Source: Suttonella sp. R2A3 (GTDB lineage: Bacteria > Pseudomonadota > Gammaproteobacteria > Cardiobacteriales > Cardiobacteriaceae). Taken from it: a stretch of DNA of 64,000 nucleotides. The notes under the pieces were generated by a model. That model was not told the origin of the DNA. It worked only from the letters and a program-made list of their open reading frames with translations, and made no database searches. Positions within the stretch are counted from its first letter, which is position 1, and every line of letters starts with the position of its first letter. Positions 29,066 through 54,350 of this stretch are shown here, piece after piece. The translations under genes were made by a program, and so were the position numbers. The stretch is from assembly GCF_021513215.1 (NCBI RefSeq), contig NZ_CP090975.1:1582001-1646000 (forward strand), written 5' to 3'.

Positions 29066-29097
29066 TCTATAGTTGCATACGAAACAATCCTATGCAA
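29066..29097 (-). promoter_or_regulatory. Predicted fahA-maiA promoter with palindromic operator
   Basis: On the minus strand a -10 like TATAGA (29066-29071) is directly preceded by GTTTCGTATGCAAC (29072-29085). This matches, at 12 of 14 positions and in the same place relative to the -10, the operator of the promoter at 44558-44586. An outer inverted repeat TTGCATA/TATGCAA spans 29073-29097. A MarR-type repressor is encoded nearby. Confidence 0.6.
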
Positions 29098-30208: not shown

Positions 30209-30225
30209 TCTGCGAGGAGCGCTTT

Positions 30226-30720
30226 ATGACACGCCTTAGCCAATGGATAGAGCGGATTTTTCTGCCTTTTCTCACCTGGCCCGCGATGTTCATGCTGATG
30301 GCGATGATGCTGATTACTGTGGTTGATGTGTTGGGCGTTAAACTCTTTAGCGCCCCCATAAAGAGCAGTATTGAGCTGACTCAACTGGCATTGGCGGTAA
30401 TGACTTTTTGTATCTTTCCGTTAGTCTGTTGGGATGAGTCGCATATTAGCGTGGATTTACTGGATCAATTTACCCCTTCTTGGTTGCATCGCGCCCGGCG
30501 AGTGCTTATTCATATTGGTGCGAGTATTGCGCTGGCCTTGCTGGGTTGGAAACTGCTCGAATTTGCCCAACGCTCGGTAAGTTATGGCGATGTAACAGAA
30601 TTTTTGCGTATCCCGATTAGCTATTTGATTACTGTAATGGCGGTGATGGGGTGGCTTTCTGCGTTGATTTCATTGCTTAAAGCGATGGTGGTTGCTTTGG
30701 GCAAAAAGGATAAAGTATGA
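30226..30720 (+). CDS. TRAP transporter small membrane subunit, DctQ family
   Basis: A 164-residue protein with four hydrophobic segments and the conserved FCIFPLVCWDESHISVDL-type loop between segments two and three. It bridges the solute receptor and the large permease. It starts 17 bases after the receptor gene behind GAGGAG and overlaps the next gene by four bases. Confidence 0.9.
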   Translation: MTRLSQWIERIFLPFLTWPAMFMLMAMMLITVVDVLGVKLFSAPIKSSIELTQLALAVMTFCIFPLVCWDESHISVDLLDQFTPSWLHRARRVLIHIGASIALALLGWKLLEFAQRSVSYGDVTEFLRIPISYLITVMAVMGWLSALISLLKAMVVALGKKDKV

Positions 30721-32027: not shown

Positions 32028-32029
32028 CG

Positions 32030-32479
32030 ATGGGTGAGGGAAGTTCGTTTGCTTTGGTGCAATTTTTACCCTATCAACTCAATATGCTCGCCGATAAAGC
32101 CTCATGCGAACTTTCACGAATTTATCACGAAGATTTTGGCATTAGTGTGCCGCAGTGGCGGGTGTTGGTGTGGTTGCAAGCAGAAGAAGATGTTACCGCG
32201 CAATTTATCGCTGATGCGACCCGTATGGATAAAACTAAAACCTCACGCGCTATCGCCGGCCTGGTTGATCGTGGCTATGTGTTGCGTGAGGCTGATCAAC
32301 GTGATTTACGACAAAATCGCTTACGTCTAACCGAACAAGGTGACGCGCTGCTGGCCGTGTTATTGCCGCTCGCTCAAGCTTGGGAAAACCAATGGCTTGA
32401 GGTGTTAAGTGAAGACGAACAGCAGCAATTTAATAACTTATTATCGCGCCTAGAAGCGCGACTTGGCACCATAATATAA
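32030..32479 (+). CDS. MarR-family transcriptional regulator of the island
   Basis: A 149-residue winged-helix protein: recognition region DVTAQFIADATRMDKTKTSRAIAGLVDRGYV and wing DQRDLRQNRLRLTEQG follow the MarR pattern. I choose the ATG at 32030 because AGGAGG (32018-32023) is correctly spaced for it; ATGs at 32012 and 32024 are too close or upstream of that site. MarR proteins bind short palindromes and often release DNA on binding phenolic ligands, so it is the best candidate to bind the shared operators at 29072-29085 and 44564-44577. Being inside the TRAP-aacS operon suggests autoregulation. Confidence 0.87.
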   Translation: MGEGSSFALVQFLPYQLNMLADKASCELSRIYHEDFGISVPQWRVLVWLQAEEDVTAQFIADATRMDKTKTSRAIAGLVDRGYVLREADQRDLRQNRLRLTEQGDALLAVLLPLAQAWENQWLEVLSEDEQQQFNNLLSRLEARLGTII

Positions 32480-32498: not shown

Positions 32499-34451
32499 AT
32501 GGCTAATGTATTGCTTTGGCAACCAGATCATTCGCGTATTGAACAAGCGAATGTATCTTTATTGATTCAATCACTGCACAACGATTATCCTGAGGTTAGC
32601 GACTATGCGAGTCTGCATGCGTTTAGTCTCAAACATCAGGCGGCATTTTGGCGGCATTTGGTTGAATTTTGTCAACTCCGTGGCGATTTTCCTGATCCGG
32701 TGATCGAGCAACCAGAAAGCGCTGAGCATGCGCAATTCTTCCCCAATGCTCGGCTCAATTTCGCTGAAAACATGCTTCAATACGGTGAGCATCACCCTGA
32801 TGAGGTGGCGATCCTTTATAAAGTGGAAGAAAACAGCATTGGCTCGTTAAGTTGGTGCGATCTGCGTGCGCAAGTGAGTCAATTGCAGCAGGTGTTACAG
32901 GCGCGAGGGGTAGGTTCAGGGGATGTGGTTGCAGGTTATTTGCCAAATTTCCCGCAAACCGTAATCGCCATGCTCGCCACCACATCGTTGGGTGCGGTGT
33001 GGAGCTCGACTTCGCCAGATTTTGGTAGTGAAGGGGCGATTGACCGTTTTGGCCAAACACGCCCGAAAGTGCTCTTTAGCGTTGATGGCTATACCTATAA
33101 CGGTAAAGTGCATACCTGCCGTGATAAGGCACAAGCCGTGGTCTCAGCGGTGGATAGCATCGAATGCTGGATAGAAATCAGCAATATTGGCGCTGAGGCA
33201 GCGCGTTTAACCTGTGCAGAGTCTTGGGATGAGGTGCTCGCGGCTTACTCGGCTAAGCCGCTAACCTTTGTGCCTTGTGAGTTTAATGACCCGCTGTATA
33301 TTCTCTATTCATCAGGGACTACCGGTAAACCTAAATGCATCATTCATAGTGTGGGCGGGATGCTACTGAATAATCTCAAAGAGCATCGCCTACATTGTGA
33401 TGTTCATCCTGGAGATCGGGTGTTTTATTTCACTACCTGTGGTTGGATGATGTGGAATTGGCTGGTAGGCAGCCTGGCCAGTGGCGCGACGATTTGCTTA
33501 TACGAAGGTTCCCCGTTTTACCCAAATGGTGAGGTGCTTTGGGATTACGCTGAAACCGCTAAATTTAGTTTGTTTGGAACGGCTGCGAAATATTTGGCCA
33601 CCCTTGAAGAGCAGCAGATTACACCAGTAACCAGCCATGATTTGCGTGCTTTACGCACATTGTGTTCAACCGGTTCTGTGTTGGCGCCTGAGCAATTTGA
33701 TTATGTCTATCAGTCGATTAAAAGCGATATTCACCTCACCAGTATCGCGGGCGGTACTGATATTTGTGGGTGTTTTGCGATCGGTAATCCGCTGACGCCG
33801 GTTTATCGAGGTGAAACACAGGGTAGTGGTTTAGCGCTTGATGTACAAGTGTTTGACGAACAGGGACAGTCGGTGCGTGAACAGCGGGGTGAATTGGTGT
33901 GTTGTAATGCGTTTCCAAACCGCCCACTAGGGTTTTATGGTGATGAGGATGGCAGTCGCTATCATCAGGCGTATTGGGCGCGTTTTCCAGGTGTTTGGCA
34001 CCATGGTGATTTTGTCGCGCGTAGTGCTCATGATGGGCTGGTGTTCTATGGACGTTCGGATGCGGTGTTAAACCCTGGTGGTGTACGTATTGGTACGGCA
34101 GAGATTTATAACCAGGTGAATGCCATGGAAGCGATTAGCGATAGCGTGGTGATTGGTCAAGATTGGGATAACGACTGTCGGGTGATTTTATTTGTGGTGC
34201 TCAAAGAGGGCTACACACTCGACGATACGCTGGTGAGCGCAATTAAAAAGCATATTCGTGAGCAATGTACGCCACGACATGTACCGGCAAAAATCTTAGC
34301 AGTTGCTGATATCCCACGAACAAAATCGGGCAAAATTGTTGAGCTCGCGGTGCGTGATGTGGTTCATGGTCGTGAGGTTCAGCAGCTCAGTGCGCTTGCG
34401 AACCCACAGGCATTAAGCTATTTTGCTGAACGAGAAGAATTAGCTGATTGA
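32499..34451 (+). CDS. aacS: Acetoacetate-CoA ligase (acetoacetyl-CoA synthetase)
   Basis: Activates acetoacetate with ATP and CoA. The 650 residues show the adenylate-forming P-loop YSSGTTGKPK, the AacS-type segment GRSDAVLNPGGVRIGTAEIYN and the C-terminal catalytic lysine in PRTKSGK. The N-terminal FPNARLNFAENML motif is typical of AacS rather than acetyl-CoA synthetase. Since acetoacetate is a product of fumarylacetoacetase, this gene links the ring-cleavage pathway to thiolase and acetyl-CoA. It starts 20 bases after marR. Confidence 0.93.
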   Translation: MANVLLWQPDHSRIEQANVSLLIQSLHNDYPEVSDYASLHAFSLKHQAAFWRHLVEFCQLRGDFPDPVIEQPESAEHAQFFPNARLNFAENMLQYGEHHPDEVAILYKVEENSIGSLSWCDLRAQVSQLQQVLQARGVGSGDVVAGYLPNFPQTVIAMLATTSLGAVWSSTSPDFGSEGAIDRFGQTRPKVLFSVDGYTYNGKVHTCRDKAQAVVSAVDSIECWIEISNIGAEAARLTCAESWDEVLAAYSAKPLTFVPCEFNDPLYILYSSGTTGKPKCIIHSVGGMLLNNLKEHRLHCDVHPGDRVFYFTTCGWMMWNWLVGSLASGATICLYEGSPFYPNGEVLWDYAETAKFSLFGTAAKYLATLEEQQITPVTSHDLRALRTLCSTGSVLAPEQFDYVYQSIKSDIHLTSIAGGTDICGCFAIGNPLTPVYRGETQGSGLALDVQVFDEQGQSVREQRGELVCCNAFPNRPLGFYGDEDGSRYHQAYWARFPGVWHHGDFVARSAHDGLVFYGRSDAVLNPGGVRIGTAEIYNQVNAMEAISDSVVIGQDWDNDCRVILFVVLKEGYTLDDTLVSAIKKHIREQCTPRHVPAKILAVADIPRTKSGKIVELAVRDVVHGREVQQLSALANPQALSYFAEREELAD

Positions 34452-34477
34452 AGCATTCATTAAATGAAGGAACAACG

Positions 34478-36109
34478 ATGACTTTAGCAGAAGTCTTATT
34501 AGATGCGCTAAAAGCGCGCGGTGTGGCAGAAATCTTTGGGATTCCTGGTGATTTCGCTTTGCCATTGTTTAAAGCGATTGAAGAAAGCCAGATCTTGCCG
34601 TGCTATTACCTCAGTCACGAACCTGCGGTAGGGTTTGCTGCGGATGCGGCCGCACGCATGCGTTGCGCGCCTTCTGTGGCAGCAGTTACTTATGGCGCAG
34701 GTGGCTTTAATATGGTTAACCCGATTGCTGCGGCTTATGCAGAAAAATCACCAGTGATTGTGCTTTCAGGGGGCCCGGGGGATACGGACAAACAAACCGG
34801 ATTATTGGTCCACCATCAGGCAAAAGACCTTAATTCACAGCTTGCGGTGTACCGTGAGGTCACTTGTGATCAAGCGATTTTAGATGACCTATCAACCGCG
34901 CCACAAACGATTGCACGGGTGTTGGATAATTGCCTGCGCTATTCAAGACCGGTGTATTTAGAAATCCCACGCGATAAAGTCTTTCAACCGTGTGAGGCCG
35001 TGCCGGCACCAGTGGATGATTTATGGCCACACCAGCAAGCAGCGCTCGATGCGTGTGCTGATGCGGTCTTATCTCGGCTACAAAATGCAGAACAGCCGAT
35101 CTTGGTGGTTGGGGTGGAAGTGCGGCGTTTTGATCTTGAAGCTCAAGTGGCGGAACTCGCGAAACGCTTAGATATCCCGGTAGTGACCACCTTGATGGGG
35201 CGTGGCATGCTGGCCAACGATCCTGATATTGCCTTGTTAGGCACATATCTTGGTTCTGGAGGTGACGCGGATTTAAGCGCTCGGGTTGAAGATGCCGATG
35301 CGATGTTTTTGCTCGGGGTGATTTTGACGGATAATAACTTCGGTTTATCCGGACAACGGGTTGATTTTCGCCGCGTGATGCACGCCGCCGATGGTCAATG
35401 CTCGATGGGCTATCATATTTATCCTAATATTGGCTTGAAGCCGTTATTAAACGCGTTACTCGAACGCTTACCTGCTTGTGACGTACCTAAAAAGCAACGT
35501 CAACTACCAAGCTATCCACAAGGCTTTGTCGCCGATGACGCAGTGTCTACGCCAACCGATGTTGCCACGCTGATCAATGATCATTTTCATCGTCACGAAA
35601 AAATGCCGTTAGCGGCAGATATGGGGGATTGTTTTTTCACCACCCTTGATATTGAATCTACTGAATTGGTCGCTCCAGGGTTCTACGCGACGATGGGCTA
35701 TGGAATTCCGGCGGGGCTAGGGTTGCAGGCCGCTGATGGTCGTCGTCCGATTATCTTGGTTGGTGATGGCGCGTTTCAGATGACCGGTTGGGAGTTGTTG
35801 AATGCCCCTCGTTATGGCTTTAACCCGATTGTCTTGGTGTTTAATAATGCCAGCTGGGAGATGCTACGTACCTTTCAGCCTGAGTCGGCCTTTAACGATT
35901 TGCCTCGGCTTGATTTTGCCGCGATCGGTGAAAGCTTAGGAGGAAAAGGTCATCGCGCACCAACACGCGCAGCGCTTGCAAACAGTTTTGCTGAAGCGCT
36001 GGCTGATGAAGCGCATTTTCATATTATCGACATTCAGATTGAGCGCGAAATCTTATCCAATACGCTGGCGCGTTTTGTCGCCGGCTTTAAAAAGATGCGC
36101 GAAGGTTAA
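34478..36109 (+). CDS. Thiamine diphosphate-dependent arylpyruvate (indolepyruvate/phenylpyruvate) decarboxylase
   Basis: A 543-residue ThDP enzyme of the 2-keto-acid decarboxylase group. The cofactor glutamate is Glu48 (LSHEPAVGFAADAAAR). The adjacent His112-His113 pair (LLVHHQAKD) marks non-oxidative decarboxylases such as pyruvate, phenylpyruvate and indolepyruvate decarboxylases. The ThDP-magnesium motif runs from GDGAFQM to FNNASWEM. It would turn arylpyruvates from Phe, Tyr or Trp into arylacetaldehydes, the same products as the amine dehydrogenase. I use ATG 34478 (AAGGA upstream) over a TTG at 34448 that overlaps aacS. Substrate choice is inferred from context. Confidence 0.85.
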   Translation: MTLAEVLLDALKARGVAEIFGIPGDFALPLFKAIEESQILPCYYLSHEPAVGFAADAAARMRCAPSVAAVTYGAGGFNMVNPIAAAYAEKSPVIVLSGGPGDTDKQTGLLVHHQAKDLNSQLAVYREVTCDQAILDDLSTAPQTIARVLDNCLRYSRPVYLEIPRDKVFQPCEAVPAPVDDLWPHQQAALDACADAVLSRLQNAEQPILVVGVEVRRFDLEAQVAELAKRLDIPVVTTLMGRGMLANDPDIALLGTYLGSGGDADLSARVEDADAMFLLGVILTDNNFGLSGQRVDFRRVMHAADGQCSMGYHIYPNIGLKPLLNALLERLPACDVPKKQRQLPSYPQGFVADDAVSTPTDVATLINDHFHRHEKMPLAADMGDCFFTTLDIESTELVAPGFYATMGYGIPAGLGLQAADGRRPIILVGDGAFQMTGWELLNAPRYGFNPIVLVFNNASWEMLRTFQPESAFNDLPRLDFAAIGESLGGKGHRAPTRAALANSFAEALADEAHFHIIDIQIEREILSNTLARFVAGFKKMREG

Positions 36110-36173: not shown

Positions 36174-37595
36174 CTATGGGTAAACATGCAAGGTTTGGAT
36201 GCTGGTGAATTCTTTTAATCCAGCTTCGCTAAACTCGACCCCAAAACCAGACTGTTTTATTCCACCAAATGGTGCGTGAGGTTGGATAACCGCATGGTGG
36301 TTAATCCATACTGAGCCGCACTCAAGTCGGCTGGCGATTTCTCGTGCTCGTTCGATGTCTTGTGACCAAACCGATCCACCCAGACCATTTGGACTATTGT
36401 TTGCATGGACAATCGCCTCCTCAACGTCAGAGAAGCGGATAATTGGCAGGATTGGGCCAAACTGTTCTTCATCAACCAAGCGGGCACCATCTTTGATATC
36501 GGCGACCAAGGTAATTGGGTAATAGTAACCATTGGTGTTGGTTTGTTCGCCACCGGTTAAAAAGCGTGCGCCGCGCTCTTTAGCATCCGCGGCTAAATCC
36601 ATAACCAGTTGGAGCTGGTCTGGGTTCTGTAATGGGCCAAAATCGCTATCTGGGTTCATGCCATTACCAGTGATCACACTGTTAGCAATTTCGGTCAGGC
36701 CTTCACAAATCGCATCATAAACGCCATCTTGGACATACAGGCGCTTGAGTGCGGCACAAGTTTGCCCATTATTGATAAACGCGGTGGCAAAAATTTTACC
36801 AACCGCTGAGGCTACATCAACATCATCCAACACAATCGCCGCATCGTTACCACCAAGCTCAAGGGTAAGGCGCTTGAGGTTGCCGGCAGCGCTTTTCATA
36901 ATGTGACGACCAGTTGGCGTTGAACCGGTAAACACGATTTTTGAAATATCTTCGTGGGCGGTGATCATTCGACCGATGCCACCATCACCACTCACGACAT
37001 TAAGAACGCCAGCTGGGAGAATTTCGTTGGCGAGTTCAGCAAAGCGTAGGGTGGTAAGTGGGGTGAGTGACGAAGGCTTCATCACCACTGTATTACCTGC
37101 AAGCATCGCTGGAATGATATGCCAGATACCAATTAATAATGGATAGTTCCATGGGGTGATCGAACCCACCACACCTAACGGCTTACGGTGAACTTCAATC
37201 GTTAAATCATCGCCTTCTTGAATGGTTTCAACCGGTAAGGTTAGGCCCGCGGTTGCGCGAATCCATGCCAAAGTTCCGCCCGTTTCAAAGCCAGCCCCCA
37301 TATCAGCAAAGCCATTTTGTGGTTTGCCTTGTTCTTTGGTGAGTAGCTCGGAGAGTTCGACCATATTGGCTTCAACCGCATCAGCGAGTTTCAACATTAA
37401 ATCGCTACGTTCTTGCCAAGGTTTTTCCGCCCAGGCTGGGAAGGCTTCTTTTGCTGCCGCAACAGCATTTTCGAGGTCTTGTTCTGAGGCTTGAGGACAA
37501 GCTGCGACCACAGATTTATCCGCGGGGTTGATAACGTCAAAGGTGTTAGCGGTGGAGACGGCTTTACCGTTAATCCATAAAGAAAAGGTTGTCAT
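36174..37595 (-). CDS. NAD(P)-dependent aldehyde dehydrogenase, probable arylacetaldehyde dehydrogenase
   Basis: A 473-residue ALDH with catalytic Cys280 in NNGQTCAAL, the general-base glutamate in LELGGND, the Asn of the oxyanion hole in TPWNYP and the coenzyme loop FTGSTPTGR. It is the last gene of the minus-strand operon with the amine dehydrogenase and should oxidise the arylacetaldehyde from amine oxidation or arylpyruvate decarboxylation to an arylacetate. Substrate specificity is inferred from context; sequence alone gives a general ALDH. It lies 145 bases downstream of the metallo-beta-lactamase-fold gene, with an inverted repeat in between. Confidence 0.88.
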   Translation of the reverse strand: MTTFSLWINGKAVSTANTFDVINPADKSVVAACPQASEQDLENAVAAAKEAFPAWAEKPWQERSDLMLKLADAVEANMVELSELLTKEQGKPQNGFADMGAGFETGGTLAWIRATAGLTLPVETIQEGDDLTIEVHRKPLGVVGSITPWNYPLLIGIWHIIPAMLAGNTVVMKPSSLTPLTTLRFAELANEILPAGVLNVVSGDGGIGRMITAHEDISKIVFTGSTPTGRHIMKSAAGNLKRLTLELGGNDAAIVLDDVDVASAVGKIFATAFINNGQTCAALKRLYVQDGVYDAICEGLTEIANSVITGNGMNPDSDFGPLQNPDQLQLVMDLAADAKERGARFLTGGEQTNTNGYYYPITLVADIKDGARLVDEEQFGPILPIIRFSDVEEAIVHANNSPNGLGGSVWSQDIERAREIASRLECGSVWINHHAVIQPHAPFGGIKQSGFGVEFSEAGLKEFTSIQTLHVYP

Positions 37596-37740: not shown

Positions 37741-38703
37741 TTAGTCTTGCAGTTGATCCCATACTTCACGATCGCGCTCTTCGGTCCAAATACGCGGCCA
37801 ATCGATACCATCGTATTCATCCCATAGACGCTGCACATCAAAGGGTAAGCAATGTTCAAAAATTGGCCAGGCGCCAAAGGTCGGTGCAAGGTGCTCGTGA
37901 GTAGCTAAAAATGCTTCTTTGAGCGAACCGCCACGACCATGAACTTCACCAACCTTATCAATCATGCCTTGAAGGAAGCTGCGGGTTTGTTCGATCGCGG
38001 CATCAACATTATCGCGTCCTTTAACCACTGGGCCACGGCCACCAATGAGGTATTCAGCTCCAAGTGCTTTGAGGTTATCGAGCGTGCCACGTGCCCAATC
38101 AAAGTGAAAGGCGTCACCTGTGTAGAGTGCGGCTTCAGCTTCAACCAAATCGCCCGCAAATAAGACTTTATGTTTTGGCAGCCAACCAATGATATCGCTG
38201 GCCGTATGACCACGGCCATAGAATGATAAATACAGGCTGCCACGGTCGCCACCAAGTGGAATTTCTAAACGATCATTGAATGTGATGTCAGGGTGAGTAA
38301 GTCCGGGGATGGTTTGCGGTTCGCGGAACAAACGTGGCATGCGACCAAACTCACTATCCCAATCTTGCTTACCACGTTCTTCAATCAATTTTTTGGTGGT
38401 CTCATGCATGATGATGCTTTCGGCCTCAAACGCTGATGCGCCTAATACACGCACGGCATGGTAATGGGTAAGCACTAAATATTTGACCGGTTTGTCGGTA
38501 TGTTCACGAAGTCGCGCTAACCATTCTTTTGCGGCTGCCGGCGTGGCGAGTGCTTCTAAACAAACGACAAAATCTTCACCTTCTACAGCGCCAACGTTGG
38601 GGTCACCTTCGGCCGTTTGTGCATATACGCCATCAGCGATGACTTCGACTGTCGCTTTCTTTTCGCCGAGATCAGCAGATGATGCAAAAGGTTTCTTACT
38701 CAT
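37741..38703 (-). CDS. Metallo-beta-lactamase-fold protein with altered metal site
   Basis: A 320-residue MBL-fold protein, 13 bases beyond the cytochrome gene. The canonical HxHxDH motif reads His80-Tyr-His82-Ala-Val84-Arg85 (THYHAVRVLG), so the Asp and His ligands of the second metal site are replaced. The later GHTAS and FAGD motifs are kept, so one metal site may remain. MBL-fold proteins recur next to quinoprotein dehydrogenases and next to DUF2783/FAD-hydroxylase genes; their role is unknown. It might hydrolyse an intermediate, or serve in cofactor maturation. No signal peptide is seen, so it is cytoplasmic. Confidence 0.8.
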   Translation of the reverse strand: MSKKPFASSADLGEKKATVEVIADGVYAQTAEGDPNVGAVEGEDFVVCLEALATPAAAKEWLARLREHTDKPVKYLVLTHYHAVRVLGASAFEAESIIMHETTKKLIEERGKQDWDSEFGRMPRLFREPQTIPGLTHPDITFNDRLEIPLGGDRGSLYLSFYGRGHTASDIIGWLPKHKVLFAGDLVEAEAALYTGDAFHFDWARGTLDNLKALGAEYLIGGRGPVVKGRDNVDAAIEQTRSFLQGMIDKVGEVHGRGGSLKEAFLATHEHLAPTFGAWPIFEHCLPFDVQRLWDEYDGIDWPRIWTEERDREVWDQLQD

Positions 38704-38718
38704 AATTCCTCTATATTA

Positions 38719-39189
38719 TTATTGGGTTGAATCGGGATAGTTGCCGGCTGCTTTGAGCGCGTCAACCAGTTCTTCTCGTTTGGCGAGGATATCGCCATCA
38801 TAAGCCTTGCGCAGGCGACTAACCTCTTCAGCCGTGAAAGGCTTAAAGGTTTCATCGACGGTATTCGGGCTAAAGGTATAAATCATCCAATTAGTGATTT
38901 CTGCTAAGTCTTGATTATCAATGGGGGCGCCAAAAGAACCGGGCACTTGGATTAAATAACGGCGCCCCTCTTCTAAGCGGGCGAAGTGGCCCAATGTGTC
39001 GGTCATTCGCGGCACATCATGTTCAGGGAAACCTTCACCTCCAGGTAGATGGCAGCCCTGACAATGCAGCTGATACAAGCTTTCCATACGCGCAGGATCG
39101 CTCACGCCTGGCATGGTGCCAGTAGTAGCAAATACAGCAGTAATCGCGATGGCGGTCACCGTTGTGGTCATGAGCGTTTTACGGATCAT
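38719..39189 (-). CDS. Periplasmic mono-haem cytochrome c of the amine dehydrogenase cluster
   Basis: A 156-residue protein with an N-terminal signal or anchor segment (residues 8-26) and one haem motif, Cys43-Gln-Gly-Cys46-His47. It follows the amine dehydrogenase small-subunit gene with a four-base overlap, the place where the Alcaligenes faecalis aau cluster has a small mono-haem cytochrome. It probably carries electrons from the tryptophan tryptophylquinone enzyme, directly or via a copper protein, to the respiratory chain. Confidence 0.88.
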   Translation of the reverse strand: MIRKTLMTTTVTAIAITAVFATTGTMPGVSDPARMESLYQLHCQGCHLPGGEGFPEHDVPRMTDTLGHFARLEEGRRYLIQVPGSFGAPIDNQDLAEITNWMIYTFSPNTVDETFKPFTAEEVSRLRKAYDGDILAKREELVDALKAAGNYPDSTQ

Positions 39190-39704
39190 TTTTCTACTTC
39201 TATACCAACCACAACCGCGGTTGAGCAGTTATAGATTGCACTGCTTGTACCCAAGCACCAGTTGATATCGTTTGATTTTCCTTGGAAGTACATCGGGCGA
39301 TCGCTTTCGTTGCGCGTACACAAGCAATTACCACAGCTGCTTTTACCGCAACAATCGTTATACGAAATGATGTAGTTTTTGCCATCAACTGGGTTATTAC
39401 ACGTACCAATCCAGGTGATGGGGGACATTTCTGTGCCGGGTGGGCAGGTATTTGCACTACCGCCGCAGCAGCCGCAAAGGAAGCCGTCGATGGCACAAAA
39501 ACGCCAGTAATCACAGCTGTTTGGATCGCCTTCCTCACCAGGGAATTTGGGTTGATTGCTTTCAGAAGCGCGTGCGACCGGTAAGAGTGGGGTTGCGCCC
39601 ACACCAACCAAGGCAGCGCCAAGGCCAGTGAGTACACTGCGTCGAGAGGTAGATTGTGCTACGCGACGCACGGTTTTTTCAGTAAATTTATCTAACCATT
39701 TCAT
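39186..39704 (-). CDS. aauA: Aralkylamine (aromatic amine) dehydrogenase light chain, TTQ subunit
   Basis: The small catalytic subunit bearing tryptophan tryptophylquinone made from two of its own Trp residues. The 172-residue precursor has a twin-arginine-like leader (TSRRSVLTGLGAAL). The cysteine-rich body has CDYWRFCAIDGFLCGCCGG, CPPGT and YNDCCG segments typical of MauA/AauA. The predicted TTQ pair is Trp98 (ITWIGTC) and Trp149 (DINWCLG), 51 residues apart as in methylamine and aromatic amine dehydrogenases. The catalytic Asp is Asp117, 19 after the first Trp, as in known enzymes. It oxidises tyramine, phenylethylamine or similar amines in the periplasm. Confidence 0.93.
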   Translation of the reverse strand: MKWLDKFTEKTVRRVAQSTSRRSVLTGLGAALVGVGATPLLPVARASESNQPKFPGEEGDPNSCDYWRFCAIDGFLCGCCGGSANTCPPGTEMSPITWIGTCNNPVDGKNYIISYNDCCGKSSCGNCLCTRNESDRPMYFQGKSNDINWCLGTSSAIYNCSTAVVVGIEVEK

Positions 39705-39719
39705 AAGATTCTCCTCGAA

Positions 39720-40337
39720 TTACGCCATTTTTGGGTCACTGGTGGATTTGCTGGATAAATAGCTTTGGATATCGCTGAAGCCACGTTCTTTGGCCTCAAA
39801 CAGGCTTTCTAAGTGTTCACGAGAGTTGATGATGCCAAGCGCAACAATCTGTTGCTGTTCATCAATTAACACACCATAAGGTAGTTTAGACACACCATAG
39901 GTCTTGCCGAGCGCCTCAGACAATACATACGGGTAGGCTTCTAAGGACTCACGCTCGATAAACGCGCGGTGCTCGCCGAGGTTATCACCATCACTGGCTA
40001 AAATCACATCGAGCCAGCCGCTTTCGGCTTTAGCCGCAGATTTAAGCGGTTTGAGTATTTGCTTACAAATAGGGCAATCGGGGGAGAGAAAAAACATCAA
40101 CGTCGCACGATTGCCCGCAGCGCCAATGCTCAGCACTTCTTCATCAATGGTTTTGACGCTGATCGCGGGGGCTTGTTCGCCAGCCTTAACGCTTTTATTA
40201 ACGGCTAGGGCGCCTGCTGGGGCGATACGCTCGTATAACACACCGATTTGTCGTGCCAGCGAAAAGACTAAGACGCCTAGTGCGATGACGGCAACAAATA
40301 AGATGATGACAGCAGTGGTTAAAATCGTTTGACTCAT
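39720..40337 (-). CDS. mauD: Methylamine/aralkylamine utilisation protein MauD, thioredoxin-like
   Basis: A 205-residue membrane-anchored thioredoxin-fold protein. A single N-terminal hydrophobic segment (residues 6-27) is followed by a periplasmic domain with redox motif Cys88-Pro-Ile-Cys91. MauD helps form the six disulfides of the small subunit in the periplasm. The ATG at 40337 overlaps the mauE stop by four bases; an upstream in-frame ATG lies inside mauE and is unlikely. The aauA start follows 15 bases after its stop. Confidence 0.92.
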   Translation of the reverse strand: MSQTILTTAVIILFVAVIALGVLVFSLARQIGVLYERIAPAGALAVNKSVKAGEQAPAISVKTIDEEVLSIGAAGNRATLMFFLSPDCPICKQILKPLKSAAKAESGWLDVILASDGDNLGEHRAFIERESLEAYPYVLSEALGKTYGVSKLPYGVLIDEQQQIVALGIINSREHLESLFEAKERGFSDIQSYLSSKSTSDPKMA

Positions 40338-40846
40338 GCGAAGGTTCCTTTTTGACTGATCCAATAACTCCGATTGGCCAGTAGTTGATTAACAGTGAAA
40401 TAGGTGAGTAATAATGACAGCGCCGCTAAAATTGTCATGACCGCGCTGCTGATACTCATCGGTACGGGTGCACTGAAAGCTGCAACAAGCGCGAGCGCAA
40501 TCAATGCCGCGTTGCGCAGCAATAAATGCCAGCTGATGTGGATAGGCACACCACCACAACCACAGTCTATATCGCTACGCCCACGGGCGAGATTGATGCC
40601 CATCGCCAGTGCGTAAGCCGCAAAAATTGCCGCTGCTAAAAGTGCACCGATGGGGCTTAGCCATAATAGTAATGCTGTGAGCGCTTCTAAGCCCATAATC
40701 ACAAACGCGGTTGCACGCACAGCATCTAAGGGCAGCAGGCGGTAAGCCGCTAGTGCTGATTGAAAATCGGCATTGTGCTGCCATTTATGCCATGCCGCAC
40801 CAGCAAGCAAGGCGCTAAGAGTGAGGGTTGCAATCCAATAAAGCAT
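40334..40846 (-). CDS. mauE: Methylamine/aralkylamine utilisation protein MauE
   Basis: A 170-residue inner-membrane protein with four to five hydrophobic segments and the MauE motif DIDCGCGG, resembling the membrane parts of DsbB/VKOR-like redox relays. It is thought to work with MauD in disulfide formation for the TTQ subunit. It starts two bases after the large-subunit gene ends and overlaps mauD. Confidence 0.92.
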   Translation of the reverse strand: MLYWIATLTLSALLAGAAWHKWQHNADFQSALAAYRLLPLDAVRATAFVIMGLEALTALLLWLSPIGALLAAAIFAAYALAMGINLARGRSDIDCGCGGVPIHISWHLLLRNAALIALALVAAFSAPVPMSISSAVMTILAALSLLLTYFTVNQLLANRSYWISQKGTFA

Positions 40847-40848
40847 GA

Positions 40849-42006
40849 TTACATCTCGTTTGCGTGAATGATAAACGGCGTTTCTTGACCAAATGGTGCC
40901 AAGGTGCGGACGTATTTACCGTCTTGATACACGTCAACCTGCATTTCAGCATTAGTCACTAACAAATAAGGGTTTTCACCATGGGTTGCTGCGACTGAGA
41001 CCCCCCAGGTTTCCAAGGTGATTTTATTGACGCGCTCTTGTTTGTTTGCATCATAAACCCATAACTCTGGACCACCATCTTTGTGGCTGCCTTCGTAGCC
41101 TTCTGGATGCATCAACACATAAAACAGGCCATTATCATCTTGAGCATTGAGTTGCCAGCCGCCTGGACGATAACCGGCTGCTTTGTCTTCTTCGTTCAGT
41201 AGTGACCAGGTTTCACCAAGAACAGCTGCCTCACCGCTCAAATCAACGTTATAGACTTTCCCATCGAAGGCGATGAAATAAGCCTGACTGCCAATAATGA
41301 CCGGTTTTTCAAAAATGGGATTATCCATCGGACTGAAGAATGAATCGCCTTGCGATACTGCGCTCGCTTTCCCTTGATCATCAACATGGTAGCTGGCAAA
41401 TGAACCATTGACACACAGACTGGAGAAGTTGCTCCTTCCAGTTGGGTAGTTGAGTACACAGCCTGGTGTTGGCTGTACATCGGTTACACTCCGTGCTTCA
41501 ACGTCCACTACCGTCACAGACGTTGCTGGTGACATATTGGTGATCACAAGATGTTTGTCATCGTTGACTAATAATGCGCTGTAGCGCTCCGGCATCGAAT
41601 TCATGCGCAATTTGTCTTCAGGTAAGACTATTTCACCTTTAGGGGAAAGGGTGGCTGGGTCGTAGATGGTGACGACATCCGTACGCTCACCACGAGAGCC
41701 GCGGCTATAAAACGTTTCGATCACATAAAATTCATTGCGTTTATTTGATTGCGCAAAGGATGAAATAAACGAGGCATCAACCATACCTTTGTATTGTTCA
41801 GGGCCAGTTTCTGCTGCCGGATCTAGCACCATATAATGCCCGTTACTCATGTGAAAGAATGCGCCATCGTGAGCAAATACCCATTGCTCAGGGTAGTCTG
41901 CAGGCAATGTTTGCACAACCTTGAGCTTTTCCGGGGCGATTTCGGCTTGCGCAAATGCTGCACTCAGTATGGCGAGTACAGCAAGCGGTTGAGTGAATCG
42001 TTTCAT
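40849..42006 (-). CDS. aauB: Aralkylamine (aromatic amine) dehydrogenase heavy chain
   Basis: The large periplasmic subunit, a seven-bladed beta-propeller of the MauB/AauB family that packs around the TTQ subunit. From the ATG at 42006 (GAGGAG upstream) the protein is 385 residues with a Sec signal peptide ending at AFAQA (about residue 21). Blade motifs include EFYVIETFYSRGSRGERTD-like and LFYVLMHPEGYEGSHKDGG-like segments, seen here at about residues 100 and 295, the latter being a strong family hallmark. Gene order aauB-mauE-mauD-aauA-cytochrome c equals the known aau cluster. Confidence 0.92.
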   Translation of the reverse strand: MKRFTQPLAVLAILSAAFAQAEIAPEKLKVVQTLPADYPEQWVFAHDGAFFHMSNGHYMVLDPAAETGPEQYKGMVDASFISSFAQSNKRNEFYVIETFYSRGSRGERTDVVTIYDPATLSPKGEIVLPEDKLRMNSMPERYSALLVNDDKHLVITNMSPATSVTVVDVEARSVTDVQPTPGCVLNYPTGRSNFSSLCVNGSFASYHVDDQGKASAVSQGDSFFSPMDNPIFEKPVIIGSQAYFIAFDGKVYNVDLSGEAAVLGETWSLLNEEDKAAGYRPGGWQLNAQDDNGLFYVLMHPEGYEGSHKDGGPELWVYDANKQERVNKITLETWGVSVAATHGENPYLLVTNAEMQVDVYQDGKYVRTLAPFGQETPFIIHANEM

Positions 42007-42010
42007 AAAG

Positions 42011-42211
42011 TTACTCCTCGAGGGTATGAGATTTAGCAATAGTAAAGGCTTCTTCAATCACTGATACATCGCCGATATGATTGGCGAGGAGCAGCAATGC
42101 CTTGCTATAAAGCGCCGGAATGTCAGCAAAGTCGACGCCTTCTTGTAAATGAACAAACGCAGCGTACAGGTCGTCAGGGTTGGCGCTGTTATTCGTGGTT
42201 TTCAGTGGCAT
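42011..42211 (-). CDS. Small DUF2783-like protein
   Basis: A 66-residue protein with the pattern NPDDLYAAF...LLLLANHIGD, which I recognise as the DUF2783 family, usually found beside MhpA-like FAD hydroxylases and MBL-fold proteins. Function is unknown. There is no signal peptide or cysteine. It has a good ribosome site (GAGGAT) and stops four bases before the amine dehydrogenase heavy-chain start, so it is translated with the aau genes. The overlap of an alternative aauB start with this gene is rejected. Confidence 0.75.
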   Translation of the reverse strand: MPLKTTNNSANPDDLYAAFVHLQEGVDFADIPALYSKALLLLANHIGDVSVIEEAFTIAKSHTLEE

Positions 42212-42345: not shown

Positions 42346-43953
42346 TCAAGTATGGGCAGTGGCACGATGTACGGCATCGATGACTGCTTCGCGGTTGTAT
42401 TTTTTCCAGCGTGCGGCAATATGCTGGTCAGGGCGAATCAAATATACACTGCCTGGTTTCATGCTATAACGATCGGCAATGACGCCATCGCTGTCTTCGA
42501 TATCACGACCAATCACTAATGCTTTTACGGGAATACCATCGACATCGAGGTCTTCGACATTTGAGCTTTGATCAGCGAGTAACACAAATCCCTTGCCCAG
42601 ATGACGTAATAAAAAGCTCGGTTTACCGTTAACACGAATCGGGGCATCAGGACAAAATGCACCTGGGGCACAGCGTGCACGAAAACCAATCGTATCAGGG
42701 CTATTGAGCGGGGATTCATGATAATTGGTGGCGGTAGACAGGCGGCCACTATTAACTAAAGGACGCGCAAACTCGTACGTTTTCGCAAGCTCGAGCACAC
42801 TATCGCGCAAAATCTGACTCGCCTGACTTTTTGGGGTGATGAAATCGGTGGCACGGCTGGAATGTTGGATGTTTTCATCGGCTGCGTAATGTCGCTCAGC
42901 CATATAGCTGTCGAGTAAACGCTCTGGCGCCTTACCATCCAGGACTAATTTTAGCTTCCAGATCAAGTTATCAACATCCGCAACGCCTGTGTTGGCACCA
43001 CGTGCACCAAATGGAGAGACCTGATGTGCCGCATCGCCGGCAAATAACACCCGCTGATGGCGGAATTCACCTATGCGACGACAGGCAAAGCGATAAACAG
43101 AAACCCATTCCAGGGCGAACTCGCGATCACCGAGCATTTTTTTCAACAGTGGGAGGACATTCTCTGGCTTTTTCCATTCCTCAGCATCAGCTTCGTTGCC
43201 GAGCTGGAAATCGATCCGCCAAATGTTATCAGACTGCCGATGTAATAAAACCGATTGGCCAGGATGGAAGGGTGGGTCGAACCAGAACCAGCGTTCGCTC
43301 GGATAATCCCCGTGCATCACAATATCGGCAATGAGGAACTGGTCGTCGAACACTCGGCCTTCGAAATCTGCACCCACTTTGCGACGGATGCTGCTGCTCG
43401 CACCATCACAGGCAATAACCCACTGCGCTTCACTAGAAAAAGACCCATCAGGCGTTTTTACGGTGAGCACAACATGATTATCGTGTTGCTCTAAGTCTTC
43501 CACACGATGCTTCCAGCGTAGATCAATCAACGGATGTTTGTCACAAGCCTCAACAAGATACTCTTCTAAATAATATTGTTGCAAGTTGATCATCGCGGGT
43601 AGTTCATGACCACTTTCTGGTAATAAATCAAATTGATAGGCAAGTTCTTCATGAAAAAAAGTTTTGCCAATTTTCCATTTCACCCCTTGTTTTAACATCG
43701 GCTCGGCAACGCCTAAGCGTTGCCATATTTCTAAAGCCCGTTTGGCATAACAAACGGCACGTGAACCAACACTTACGGTATTGTTATCGTCAAAAATCAC
43801 ACATTTGATGCCACGTGCCGCACAGTCTAGTGCGGCAGTTAGCCCAATGGGACCTGCGCCAATAATGGCAACGTCATGACGTTGTGCAACACCGCTTTGT
43901 TGTTCTTCAGAGCAGCGATAAGCAAACTCTGGATATGTGTAGGTTGACATCAT
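42346..43953 (-). CDS. FAD-dependent aromatic hydroxylase, MhpA-like (group A flavin monooxygenase)
   Basis: A 535-residue flavoprotein monooxygenase. It shows the FAD Rossmann motif GAGPIG (residues 32-37), the DG motif ACDGASS and the GD motif GDAAHQVSPFGARGANTG, plus the C-terminal thioredoxin-like domain of 3-(3-hydroxyphenyl)propionate hydroxylases. In this island the likely reaction is hydroxylation of an arylacetate (for example 4-hydroxyphenylacetate 1-hydroxylation to homogentisate). Another possibility is hydroxylation of a Trp of the amine dehydrogenase small subunit, as a flavin enzyme does for the related CTQ enzymes. It is 29 bases downstream of the VOC gene. Confidence 0.85.
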   Translation of the reverse strand: MMSTYTYPEFAYRCSEEQQSGVAQRHDVAIIGAGPIGLTAALDCAARGIKCVIFDDNNTVSVGSRAVCYAKRALEIWQRLGVAEPMLKQGVKWKIGKTFFHEELAYQFDLLPESGHELPAMINLQQYYLEEYLVEACDKHPLIDLRWKHRVEDLEQHDNHVVLTVKTPDGSFSSEAQWVIACDGASSSIRRKVGADFEGRVFDDQFLIADIVMHGDYPSERWFWFDPPFHPGQSVLLHRQSDNIWRIDFQLGNEADAEEWKKPENVLPLLKKMLGDREFALEWVSVYRFACRRIGEFRHQRVLFAGDAAHQVSPFGARGANTGVADVDNLIWKLKLVLDGKAPERLLDSYMAERHYAADENIQHSSRATDFITPKSQASQILRDSVLELAKTYEFARPLVNSGRLSTATNYHESPLNSPDTIGFRARCAPGAFCPDAPIRVNGKPSFLLRHLGKGFVLLADQSSNVEDLDVDGIPVKALVIGRDIEDSDGVIADRYSMKPGSVYLIRPDQHIAARWKKYNREAVIDAVHRATAHT

Positions 43954-43982: not shown

Positions 43983-44528
43983 TTAGCTATTAGCGAACTC
44001 ATTTTCATGAATCCACGCGGCATGTTTTGGTGCTTTTTTGGTTTTTGCCCATTCTTCGATCATCGGCACAGCAACCTCATTGAGCTTTTCAAGTTCACCA
44101 GGCTTATCGGTGCGAACGGTGAGTTCCATACGGTGACCATTAGGGTCAAAGAAATAGATCGATTTAATAATGCCATGATCGGTTACACCAAGCACATCAA
44201 GCCCTTTGCTTTCGAGATCAGCTTTGGCTTCTAATAGCTCTTCCATACTGCCTAATTCGAAGGCGATATGCTGTACCCATTCTGGGGTATTGCGGTCACG
44301 GTCCATTTTAGGGTGTGTTGGAATTTCAAAAAACGCCAAAATGTTGCCATTACCCGCATCCATAAATAAATGCATATAAGGATCGGGGGCTTTGGTCGAA
44401 GGAACCTGGTCTTCTGCAATCGCTAAGAGGAATTTCATATTCAACTTGTCGCGGTAAAACTCCATAGTTTCTTTAGCGTCATGACAGCGATAAGCCACGT
44501 GGTGGATTTGTTTGATATTAATACTCAT
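43983..44528 (-). CDS. VOC-superfamily protein, candidate ring-cleavage dioxygenase
   Basis: A 181-residue protein with one vicinal-oxygen-chelate domain. Possible metal ligands are His9 (IHHVAY), a central His in MHLFMD or VQHIAFEL and the Glu of GHRMELT. Type I extradiol dioxygenases and glyoxalases share this fold. It is the first gene of the minus-strand operon and no cupin-type homogentisate dioxygenase lies in the island, so it may open the ring made by the downstream hydroxylase; a glyoxalase-like role cannot be excluded. The ATG at 44528 follows AAGGAGA; the longer frame from 44570 starts inside the promoter. Confidence 0.8.
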   Translation of the reverse strand: MSINIKQIHHVAYRCHDAKETMEFYRDKLNMKFLLAIAEDQVPSTKAPDPYMHLFMDAGNGNILAFFEIPTHPKMDRDRNTPEWVQHIAFELGSMEELLEAKADLESKGLDVLGVTDHGIIKSIYFFDPNGHRMELTVRTDKPGELEKLNEVAVPMIEEWAKTKKAPKHAAWIHENEFANS

Positions 44529-44557: not shown

Positions 44558-44586
44558 AATATAGTTTCATCCGAAACAGTTGTCAA
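44558..44586 (-). promoter_or_regulatory. Promoter of the VOC-hydroxylase-aau operon with embedded palindromic operator
   Basis: On the minus strand TTGACA (44581-44586) and TATATT (44558-44563) are 17 bases apart. The spacer contains GTTTCGGATGAAAC (44564-44577), a perfect inverted repeat with GTTTC/GAAAC arms. A repressor there would block RNA polymerase directly. The same element precedes fahA. The transcript would begin near 44551, about 23 bases before the VOC start. Confidence 0.75.
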
Positions 44587-44874: not shown

Positions 44875-44902
44875 TTGACAATGCTTGATTGGGCGGTATA
44901 AT
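44875..44902 (+). promoter_or_regulatory. Perfect-consensus sigma70 promoter of the rpsH operon
   Basis: TTGACA (44875-44880) and TATAAT (44897-44902) with a 16-base spacer, both full consensus. The predicted transcript starts near 44909 and has a leader of about 165 bases before rpsH, which could hold a regulatory site for a ribosomal protein such as S8. Confidence 0.85.
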
Positions 44903-45075
44903 ACTGCCCCCTTGCGGTAAGGAGATTTCGCACCAAGCGGTTCTCTTTTTCGGCAAAGAATCCTATTTGTACTGCTTTGCTCTGGCTCTTGCTGGTTAGC
45001 GGTGCGTTTAGGTGTTTAAGTTCCAGGGTCATTGGTTGCCAATAGACCTGATACTGAATCCAAGAGGAATTAACT

Positions 45076-45465
45076 ATGTTATCTGATCCAGTTGCAGATA
45101 TGTTAACGCGCATCCGCAATGCGCAGCGTATCGGCCGTTCACTGGTTACTATGCCTGCCTCTAAGCACAAAGCAGCGATTGCTCAAGTGTTGCAAGATGA
45201 AGGCTATATCCAGTCGTTTGAAGTTAAAGGCGATGAAAAGCCTGAGTTAACCGTTCACTTGAAATATCATCAAGGTGAGCCGGTCATCGAATTAATTAAG
45301 CGCGTGAGTCGTCCTGGTTTGCGTATTTTTAAAGGTAAAGATGAGCTGCCACGTGTGCAGGGTGGTTTGGGCGTTGCGATTGTTTCAACGTCTAAAGGCG
45401 TCATGAGCGACCACAAAGCACGCGAACAAGGTATCGGCGGCGAAATTCTTTGCTACGTCGCTTAA
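45076..45465 (+). CDS. rpsH: Small ribosomal subunit protein uS8
   Basis: A 129-residue 16S-rRNA-binding protein, beginning [16 protein letters not shown] and ending with [22 protein letters not shown], both diagnostic. In E. coli S8 also represses the spc operon. Here it is the first gene after a strong promoter, not preceded by rpsN. AAGAGGAA lies upstream of the ATG. Confidence 0.98.
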
Positions 45466-52103: not shown

Positions 52104-52174
52104 ATGTTTTGCCGATCTGGCTGTGTCGCAGTAGAATAAAAGTCACGGATTTTCCCTTAGTTAAGGAACTTACG

Positions 52175-52870
52175 ATGAGACACATAAAGGCAATAGCCAT
52201 TGGTTTAGCGATGTATGTTGTGAGTATCACCGTACTGGCTGACTTCTTTTCTGAAACGAAAATCAAGGCTGAGGAAGGTAATGCGGCCGCGCAATTTAAC
52301 TTAGGCCTATTCTATGCTCAAGGTAAAGAGATCGGGCAAGACTTCGATAAAGCGCGTTACTGGTATCAAAAGGCTGCCGATCAAGGCCTGGCAGCAGCAC
52401 AAAATAATCTTGGTGGACTCTATGATCATGGCATTGGTGTTGCTCAAGATCAAAGCAAGGCGGTAGGCTTGTACACCCAGGCTGCAGAACAAGGTGATGC
52501 TCAGGCGCAATACAATCTCGCGCTGATGTATGAGCAAGGTTATGGGGTTGCGCAAGATTATAGCAAGGCCAAGTATTGGTATGAGCAATCCGCCGAACAA
52601 GGTATTGCTGAATCACTCTATAATCTTGGCGTTATCTATTACAACGGCTACGGTGTTGATCAAGATTACGCAAAAGCGTTTGAACTTTACCAACAAGCTG
52701 CAGAAAAAGGGCTGCCGGATGCGCAAAATAATTTGGCGTTGATGTATTTTGAAGGCCAAGGTGTGGCGCAGGATGTCACAAAAGCTAAGGCATGGTTTAA
52801 AAAATCGTGCGATAGTGGTGATGGGTTAGGCTGTGGTAACTATCGTATTATTGATGAAGCCGGCCTTTAA
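52175..52870 (+). CDS. Secreted Sel1-repeat protein 1
   Basis: A 231-residue protein with a Sec signal peptide (residues 1 to about 24, ending TVLA) and five full Sel1 repeats, each with AQxNLGxxYxxGxGVxQD and KAxxWYxxAAEQG. The C-terminal cap has two cysteines (SCDSGDGLGCGNYR) that could form a disulfide in the periplasm. I choose ATG 52175, which has AAGGAA upstream and a signal peptide; a longer frame from 52109 lacks both. Sel1 proteins serve as binding scaffolds. It is first of three similar adjacent genes. Confidence 0.85.
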   Translation: MRHIKAIAIGLAMYVVSITVLADFFSETKIKAEEGNAAAQFNLGLFYAQGKEIGQDFDKARYWYQKAADQGLAAAQNNLGGLYDHGIGVAQDQSKAVGLYTQAAEQGDAQAQYNLALMYEQGYGVAQDYSKAKYWYEQSAEQGIAESLYNLGVIYYNGYGVDQDYAKAFELYQQAAEKGLPDAQNNLALMYFEGQGVAQDVTKAKAWFKKSCDSGDGLGCGNYRIIDEAGL

Positions 52871-52906
52871 TGGGTGCGCGCTTACTTAACGCCTCTAGTA
52901 AACGGC

Positions 52907-52934
52907 ACTGTCGCGCATGGTGCGACAGTTTTCC
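52907..52934 (+). terminator. Hairpin terminator between Sel1 genes 1 and 2
   Basis: ACTGTCGC (52907-52914) pairs with GCGACAGT (52922-52929), followed by TTTT. The short T run suggests partial termination. Confidence 0.6.
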
Positions 52935-52952
52935 AATTTTTAGGATTGAATC

Positions 52953-53651
52953 ATGAATCAAACGATGAACAAGTGGTTTTTATCGTCTGCCTTGTGTGTT
53001 GTGCCAGCACTCAGCCACGCCGATAGCTTTTCTGAAACTAAAACCCGCGCAGAAGCAGGTGATGCGGTAGCGCAAGATGCACTCGGGACCATGTATGCTC
53101 ACGGTGATAACGTCGCGCGGGATTATGACGAGGCGTTGCGTTGGTATAAACAGGCGGTTGCGCAAGGAAATGCTAGTGCACAAAGCCATCTTGGTGATCT
53201 TTATCGCTATGGTTATGGGGTTGAGGAAGATGATCGTGAGGCCGTTCGCTGGTATCAAAAATCCGCTGATCAAGGGTATGCTGAAGGTCAACATAAGCTT
53301 GGTGTGATGTATTCCTTCGGTAGTGGTGTTGATCAGGATTATAGTGCCTCACTACTTTGGGAGACAAAAGCTGCGGAACAAGGTCATAGCGAGGCGCAAT
53401 TTAATATTGGTACCATGTATCACTATGGTGACGGGGTGGAGAAAGATTATGTGCAAGCTGTGCATTGGTATCAACAAGCAGCCGAACAAGACCACGGACC
53501 CGCGCAATATAACCTTGCATCATTGTATTACGCAGGGCAAGGCGTTGAGCAGAACGCAACGCTTGCGAAACAATGGTTAGGAAAATCGTGTGATAATGGT
53601 TTTCGCGAAGCGTGCTTTACCTACCGTCAGCTTGAAGAGCAGGGTTATTGA
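52953..53651 (+). CDS. Secreted Sel1-repeat protein 2
   Basis: A 232-residue paralogue of its neighbours, with a signal peptide ending near ALSHA (residue 23) and about five Sel1 repeats. The start of the mature part, DSFSETKTRAEAGDAVAQ, closely resembles the N-terminus of the cytosolic 13-repeat protein at 3500. The C-terminal cap SCDNGFREACFTYR keeps the cysteine pair. Partner unknown; probably periplasmic. Confidence 0.85.
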   Translation: MNQTMNKWFLSSALCVVPALSHADSFSETKTRAEAGDAVAQDALGTMYAHGDNVARDYDEALRWYKQAVAQGNASAQSHLGDLYRYGYGVEEDDREAVRWYQKSADQGYAEGQHKLGVMYSFGSGVDQDYSASLLWETKAAEQGHSEAQFNIGTMYHYGDGVEKDYVQAVHWYQQAAEQDHGPAQYNLASLYYAGQGVEQNATLAKQWLGKSCDNGFREACFTYRQLEEQGY

Positions 53652-53696
53652 TGCTCAGGGTAAAAATTGGCTTAACTACCTCCGATAAGGAAAAAT

Positions 53697-54350
53697 ATGG
53701 TACAAATTAAAAAAATAGCGGCGTTTGTCTTAATGATATGCCTTGCAGGAACGCTCTGGGCACATACCGAAGCTAGGCTTCCGATGCAAACAGATTCTGA
53801 AGAGATTCTGAGTGAGGCTGAGCTTGAGCAGATGGTCGAAGGGTTCAAAGCATTAGCTGATGAGGGACAGGCTGAAGCACAACTCAATCTCGGTTTGCTG
53901 TATGAGGTTGGTTTTGTGGTGGAACAGGATTATAGCGAAGCTGCAGACTGGTATCAAAAAGCGGCCGAGCAGGGTAATGCTGATGCGCAAAATAACCTTG
54001 GTGTGCTCTATAGCGATGGGCAGGGCGTTGAACAAGATGAAGATCATGCTGTTCGCTTGTATCAGCAAGCGGCAGAGCAAGGTCATCCTAGTGCGCAAAA
54101 TAATTTAGCGGGTATGTATTTGAGTGGTCGTGGCGTTGCACAAGACGCGCAACAAGCGGTGCAGTGGTATCAAAAAGCGGCAGAACAAAATGAGCCACAG
54201 GCGCAATTTAATTTAGCGGTGATGCTTTACCAGGGCCAAGGCGTTGAACGAGATGTTGATCAGGCGATTAAGTGGTTTGGCGAGGCGTGTCAATATGGCG
54301 ACCAAAGAGCCTGTGGCAATTACCGCCTGCTGAATAAAGAAGCTGAATAA
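53697..54350 (+). CDS. Secreted Sel1-repeat protein 3
   Basis: A 217-residue paralogue with a signal peptide ending near LWAHT (about residue 22), a short acidic segment (residues 30-52) and four to five Sel1 repeats. The terminal cap ACQYGDQRACGNYRLL keeps the cysteine pair. It starts 45 bases after the second copy, behind AAGGAAAAA. The trio probably arose by tandem duplication. Confidence 0.85.
   Translation: MVQIKKIAAFVLMICLAGTLWAHTEARLPMQTDSEEILSEAELEQMVEGFKALADEGQAEAQLNLGLLYEVGFVVEQDYSEAADWYQKAAEQGNADAQNNLGVLYSDGQGVEQDEDHAVRLYQQAAEQGHPSAQNNLAGMYLSGRGVAQDAQQAVQWYQKAAEQNEPQAQFNLAVMLYQGQGVERDVDQAIKWFGEACQYGDQRACGNYRLLNKEAE

Follow-up and report, generated by a model that had tools for sequence, protein, structure and literature searches.

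Gene content of the island

The window, by which we mean the whole 64,000-nucleotide stretch of the Suttonella sp. R2A3 genome analysed here, carries an island of aromatic catabolic genes together with putative regulatory sites, as follows.

43983-44528, reverse strand: predicted VOC-type homogentisate 1,2-dioxygenase, 181 aa, single domain (from PF00903, orthology to PDB 9u42, operon slot and exclusion with HmgA)
44558-44586, reverse strand: promoter-like site of the VOC-hydroxylase operon, TTGACA, 17 nt spacer, TATATT; 11/12 consensus bases in a consensus scan whose sites were overall no more numerous than in shuffles
44562-44578, reverse strand: operator-like palindrome TGTTTCGGATGAAACTA, between the VOC promoter hexamers; also upstream of FAH
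42346-43953, reverse strand: FAD-dependent aromatic hydroxylase (NF006002/PRK08132, 795 bits), of a kind that adjoins classic HmgA-FAH-MAI in halomonads
40849-42057, reverse strand: TTQ amine dehydrogenase large subunit, putatively of the aromatic amine dehydrogenase type (PF06433)
39186-40846, reverse strand: MauE- and MauD-like maturation proteins and TTQ amine dehydrogenase small subunit (PF07291, TIGR02661, PF02975)
38719-39189, reverse strand: small cytochrome c, probable electron acceptor (PF13442, under the gathering score)
37741-38703, reverse strand: MBL-fold hydrolase (PF00753)
36174-37595, reverse strand: aldehyde dehydrogenase, probably arylacetaldehyde to arylacetate (PF00171)
34448-36109, forward strand: indolepyruvate/phenylpyruvate decarboxylase (TIGR03394, 766 bits, above cut-off)
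32499-34451, forward strand: acetoacetate-CoA ligase, taking the FAH product (TIGR01217, 817 bits, above cut-off)
32012-32479, forward strand: MarR-family regulator (PF12802)
29183-32027, forward strand: TRAP transporter binding protein, small and large permease (PF03480, TIGR00786 for the binding protein and large permease)
29070-29086, reverse strand: operator-like palindrome, second copy, 5' of FAH
28048-29037, reverse strand: fumarylacetoacetate hydrolase (FAH), ATG at 29037 (PF01557, PF18288)
27470-28051, reverse strand: maleylacetoacetate isomerase (MAI; TIGR01262, 233 bits, above cut-off)

An AAGGAG ribosome binding site lies 7 nt 5' of the ATG of the VOC gene, and the hydroxylase ORF begins 29 bp 3' of the gene on the same strand. 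This arrangement, with the promoter-like site on the 5' side, agrees with the first-pass annotation of this DNA, which placed the VOC gene at the head of an operon with the hydroxylase. The same annotation described an island with the steps on either side of ring cleavage but without hmgA, and model matches (TIGR01262 above cut-off for MAI, PF01557 for FAH, none for hmgA) confirmed this for the window. The hydroxylase probably converts 4-hydroxyphenylacetate to homogentisate; its best match among solved structures is PnpA, a para-nitrophenol monooxygenase. An MBL-fold hydrolase gene recurs beside the hydroxylase in other loci (L017, L020, L044, L067, L070, L072, L099 and L101), with either VOC or cupin HmgA, and we speculate that this protein might hydrolyse a lactone arising after ring hydroxylation.

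The regions upstream of the VOC and FAH genes have TGTTTCG(G/T)ATG(A/C)AACTA in common, at a similar distance from the start codon, and within three mismatches the palindrome occurs at only two places in the window (0.24 expected). The shared palindrome suggests that the two genes are under joint control, with the palindrome as a possible operator of one regulator. It did not turn up in front of 15 related VOC genes, and is therefore lineage-specific at best.

The 3' end of maiA (27470-27510) seems to carry a one-base frameshift: the ORF of 193 aa closes with IIRSCSL, and another frame continues with a normal MAI C-terminus DDYPQLLALDAACNELPEFIAAHPENQPDAPKE. Either a sequencing error or a genuine lesion could account for this. 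Next to the island, the S10-spc ribosomal operon is split at 44875-45076, where a perfect-consensus promoter precedes rpsH; rpsN is some 518 kb away (G000:C1:1109184), and the two genes are adjacent in another genome from this genus. Three tandem Sel1-like repeat proteins with VAQDYSKA-type repeats are encoded downstream of the ribosomal genes, at 52109-54350.

Fold and predicted metal site of the VOC protein

Most type I extradiol enzymes carry two VOC domains. The window protein, in which the Pfam Glyoxalase model PF00903 covers residues 7-136, is modelled by AlphaFold (mean pLDDT 87) as one VOC domain made of two beta-alpha-beta-beta-beta motifs and a C-terminal helix. The first-pass description of a single-module protein holds as to the one domain and needs amending in that this domain already comprises two such motifs. 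With 181 aa and one domain, against about 300 aa and two domains, we rejected a two-domain type I extradiol enzyme (C23O, HpaD) as its identity; scores were 39 bits against a cut-off of 320 for TIGR03211 and 26 against 321 for HpaD. Also rejected were cupin HmgA, as Glyoxalase/VOC models match the protein and the HmgA family is not among the matches, and glyoxalase I or fosfomycin thiol transferase, for which the protein falls below the cut-offs (glyox_I, 22 against 120 bits; FosF, 39 against 280).

The residues H10, H87, H118, Y125 and E135 are invariant in 42 VOC orthologues. Alignment to XylE pairs H87 with H214, H118 with H246, Y125 with Y255 and E135 with E265; in XylE, H214 and E265 are iron ligands, and H246 and Y255 are catalytic. 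By this comparison H10, H87 and E135 are the likely iron ligands of the VOC protein, H10 appearing from aligned ranges to sit at the place expected of the third ligand. The first-pass annotation had allowed for a metal site incompatible with ring cleavage; the site predicted here is instead an extradiol 2-His-1-Glu site in which the second-sphere His and Tyr are conserved. The weak matches to Fos and glyoxalase models would fit an accessory or detoxifying glyoxalase- or Fos-like pathway protein with no dioxygenase activity, a role that the invariance of the extradiol residues H118 and Y125 makes very improbable.

Known VOC enzymes provide partial parallels. Catechol 2,3-dioxygenase and BphC share the fold, and both their metal ligands (His, Glu) and their second-sphere residues (His, Tyr) align with those of the window protein, but they have two VOC domains, about 300 aa and catechol substrates. 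L-DOPA dioxygenase (PDB 6on1) is a single-domain VOC ring cleaver and thus a precedent as to size, although it acts on a catechol in a biosynthetic role and its identity is low (18%). The AlphaFold model is closest to methylmalonyl-CoA epimerase, HPPD and the catalytic domain of extradiol dioxygenases, and is also similar to PcpA, a 2,6-dichlorohydroquinone 1,2-dioxygenase (PDB 4huz; Z 9.9, rmsd 3.6 over 152 residues). PcpA has 317 residues and other substrates, yet it is a VOC enzyme that opens a para-hydroquinone, and because homogentisate is a substituted hydroquinone, PcpA-type chemistry may be a reasonable model for the VOC protein.

Ring-cleavage genes in the genome and among relatives

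The genome consists of one contig of 1,989,117 bp and is 100% complete. Targeted model searches found no match to hmgA (TIGR01015) anywhere in it, which removes the possibility, left standing by the first-pass annotation, that a classic hmgA lies elsewhere. LigB (PF02900) and gentisate dioxygenase (TIGR02272) likewise had no match in the complete genome, HPPD was not found in it, and PF00903 matches, besides the VOC protein, just two ORFs of 127 aa, both outside the window. The VOC gene is the only candidate ring cleaver among the families searched (hmgA, LigB, gentisate dioxygenase and PF00903), so that its initial designation as sole candidate is borne out to that extent. With no hmgA in the genome and an extradiol-type metal site predicted, the initial reading of the VOC protein as the ring-cleaving enzyme is supported.

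A scan of bacterial and archaeal genomes yielded at least 590 confirmed VOC relatives, the best 80 of which are 64-74% identical to the window protein over nearly full length. Orthologues (61-74% identity) either take the place of hmgA in the HPPD-VOC-FAH-MAI operons of many Proteobacteria or adjoin the same hydroxylase. Among the loci of the best 80 of the at least 590 relatives, 42 have HPPD within 5 kb of the VOC gene, 45 have FAH (one or other of two types), 24 have MAI and 16 have the FAD hydroxylase; the 13 loci with no pathway gene within 5 kb count against the proposed role of VOC. A frequent gene order is MarR regulator, HPPD, VOC, FAH, MAI, and the A. baumannii genes run fahA-maiA-VOC-IclR, facing hppD. 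The neighbouring operon orders indicate that three kinds of enzyme fill one slot, since HPPD-divergent cupin-FAH-MAI operons occur in L100 and L103, and halomonad operons (L099, L101) read MBL-hydroxylase-classic HmgA-FAH-MAI, with a hydroxylase 51% identical to that of the window. An Ideonella cluster (L059) that has VOC and classic hmgA together counts against such replacement.

The divergent HmgA, about 380 aa long, lies between HPPD and FAH (L100:3322-4461, and L103) and scores 56 bits with PF20510. Genomes with this divergent cupin, which make up 12 of 58 HPPD-positive genomes, score 77-88 bits to TIGR01015, far under the hmgA cut-off.

Co-occurrence was assessed in an even draw of 352 gammaproteobacterial genomes, with a VOC orthologue defined by a score above 300 bits (the next score was 174). 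VOC orthologues were present in 8 of these genomes, classic cupin HmgA in 45 and the divergent cupin in 13, and in none of the 352 did a VOC orthologue and a cupin of either type occur together. The 58 HPPD-positive genomes divided into 34 with classic HmgA, 12 with the divergent cupin, 7 with VOC and 5 with none. Treating genomes as independent, which they are not fully, Fisher tests gave p 1.7e-5 for VOC with HPPD and p 2.6e-6 for VOC against cupin HmgA among HPPD-positive genomes. When genomes were instead chosen for VOC (n=28), 24 lacked both cupins and one had the divergent cupin; the remaining 3 of 28 also had classic hmgA, and these count against the proposed role of VOC.

On the tree, five switches between HPPD and hydroxylase contexts are needed, of which supported branches force only one, and we therefore do not claim repeated recruitment into these contexts. 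VOC was not found in any of 11 further genomes from the family that were searched (one of the same genus, several incomplete), and for this reason the window copy may have been acquired horizontally.

Probable homogentisate cleavage and the Acinetobacter orthologue

PDB entry 9u42 was released on 23 July 2025 under the title 'Crystal Structure of Homogentisate 1,2-Dioxygenase from Acinetobacter in Complex with Zn ion'. Its chain is named Glyoxalase and is 182 aa long, and 172 of 180 positions match the A. baumannii VOC protein. It is a full-length orthologue of the window protein (E 3e-73, residues 1-178, 62-65% identity), with the same length and the same invariant residues. The two differ in how their pathways are fed, by HPPD in Acinetobacter and by the FAD hydroxylase in the window; the window gene has the genomic location expected of the family, with the hydroxylase in its operon and FAH and MAI in the window. 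Two points count against relying on this entry: its title is the depositor's statement, and the crystal contains Zn, not Fe. In Foldseek, the window model superimposes on 9u42 with an rmsd of 17.8 A despite 62% identity, which implies that the halves are arranged differently in the Zn-bound crystal and the monomer model, possibly by half-swapping between two chains.

From the operon-slot substitution, the mutual exclusion between VOC and cupin HmgA and the title that 9u42 bears, we infer, with a probability of roughly 0.93, that the VOC protein acts as a single-domain dioxygenase of the extradiol type, uses Fe(II) and cleaves the ring of homogentisate, with metal, substrate and product all predicted. 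Homogentisate (2,5-dihydroxyphenylacetate) would be opened between C1 and C2, yielding maleylacetoacetate, a step that cupin HmgA carries out elsewhere; the cupin (TIGR01015) has the same place in pathway and operon and the same presumed reaction, but another fold, an unrelated sequence and about 430 aa. Judging from the families of the island genes, the TTQ dehydrogenase would convert aromatic amines, and the decarboxylase aryl pyruvates, to arylacetaldehyde, from which the aldehyde dehydrogenase would produce 4-hydroxyphenylacetate and the FAD hydroxylase then homogentisate. After ring opening, MAI and FAH would yield fumarate and acetoacetate, the latter being activated by the acetoacetate-CoA ligase. 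The frameshifted look of the window maiA 3' end counts against this route.

VOC dioxygenases differ in substrate, and distant homologues (41-47% identity), left out of our orthologue set for their mixed contexts, keep the His, Tyr and Glu residues in other aromatic clusters. The window enzyme might accordingly open a related para-diol or catechol, such as another dihydroxyphenylacetate or a hydroquinone, leaving homogentisate to an unrecognised enzyme. We consider this improbable: homogentisate is the product of HPPD, the usual neighbour, and compounds derived from homogentisate are the substrates of MAI and FAH; moreover, the exclusion is specifically with HmgA, and the orthologue 9u42 carries the name of homogentisate dioxygenase. 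The mutual exclusion with HmgA would also be left unexplained by an accessory, glyoxalase-like role, the less probable of these alternatives.

The first-pass annotation called homogentisate cleavage by such a protein unusual, which is fair with respect to textbooks and less so given that the family is widespread in Proteobacteria and a structure has been deposited. The enzyme kind is already known from that one PDB title; we found no published description of 9u42, no description in the literature of a VOC- or glyoxalase-type homogentisate dioxygenase, and no open paper describing the class. Homogentisate cleavage by the VOC family would be a clean non-orthologous replacement, with classic cupin, divergent cupin and VOC in the same operon slot. 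The broader proposal, that single-domain VOC proteins form an undescribed non-cupin class of homogentisate 1,2-dioxygenases, widespread in Proteobacteria, that explains both missing-hmgA gaps and Acinetobacter pyomelanin mutants, is tentative, and we think it somewhat more apt to fail than to hold. If true, a class annotated merely as 'VOC family protein' or 'glyoxalase' would account for gaps in tyrosine and hydroxyphenylacetate catabolism; genomes lacking hmgA would often have no real gap, the name 'glyoxalase' concealing a core catabolic enzyme.

Homogentisate dioxygenase is a textbook enzyme: people who lose it have alkaptonuria, and bacteria that lose it form brown pigment. In pigmented A. 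baumannii without hmgA, a 'type I ring-cleaving dioxygenase' gene between hmgC and hmgR was judged probably inactive (Fonseca 2020, PMC7646211), a judgement that favours an accessory role for the VOC protein. The argument rests, however, on the missing classic hmgA and the pigment, and cupin hmgA is absent from both A. baumannii chromosomes that we tested (n=2). In another pigmented strain, Tn2006 lay within 'hmgA' with the target duplication CATTTTTTT, and overexpression of 'hmgA' removed the pigment (Zhao 2022, PMC9431530). The 9-mer CATTTTTTT occurs once in the fah-mai-VOC-IclR-hppD cluster, within the VOC gene, and at the same place in a second strain; the chance of its falling in a gene of VOC length is about 0.05 (scaled). 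Given a target duplication inside VOC and no cupin hmgA, the gene complemented in PMC9431530 was most likely the VOC gene. Reference coordinates for 'hmgA' in a further study of pigmented A. baumannii span 633 bp (PMC11945678), and because 633 bp is the length of maiA in locus L083, that study probably examined maiA under the hmgA name. The Acinetobacter pyomelanin literature may thus need correcting, the homologue having been called inactive or probably studied as hmgA with its fold unremarked.
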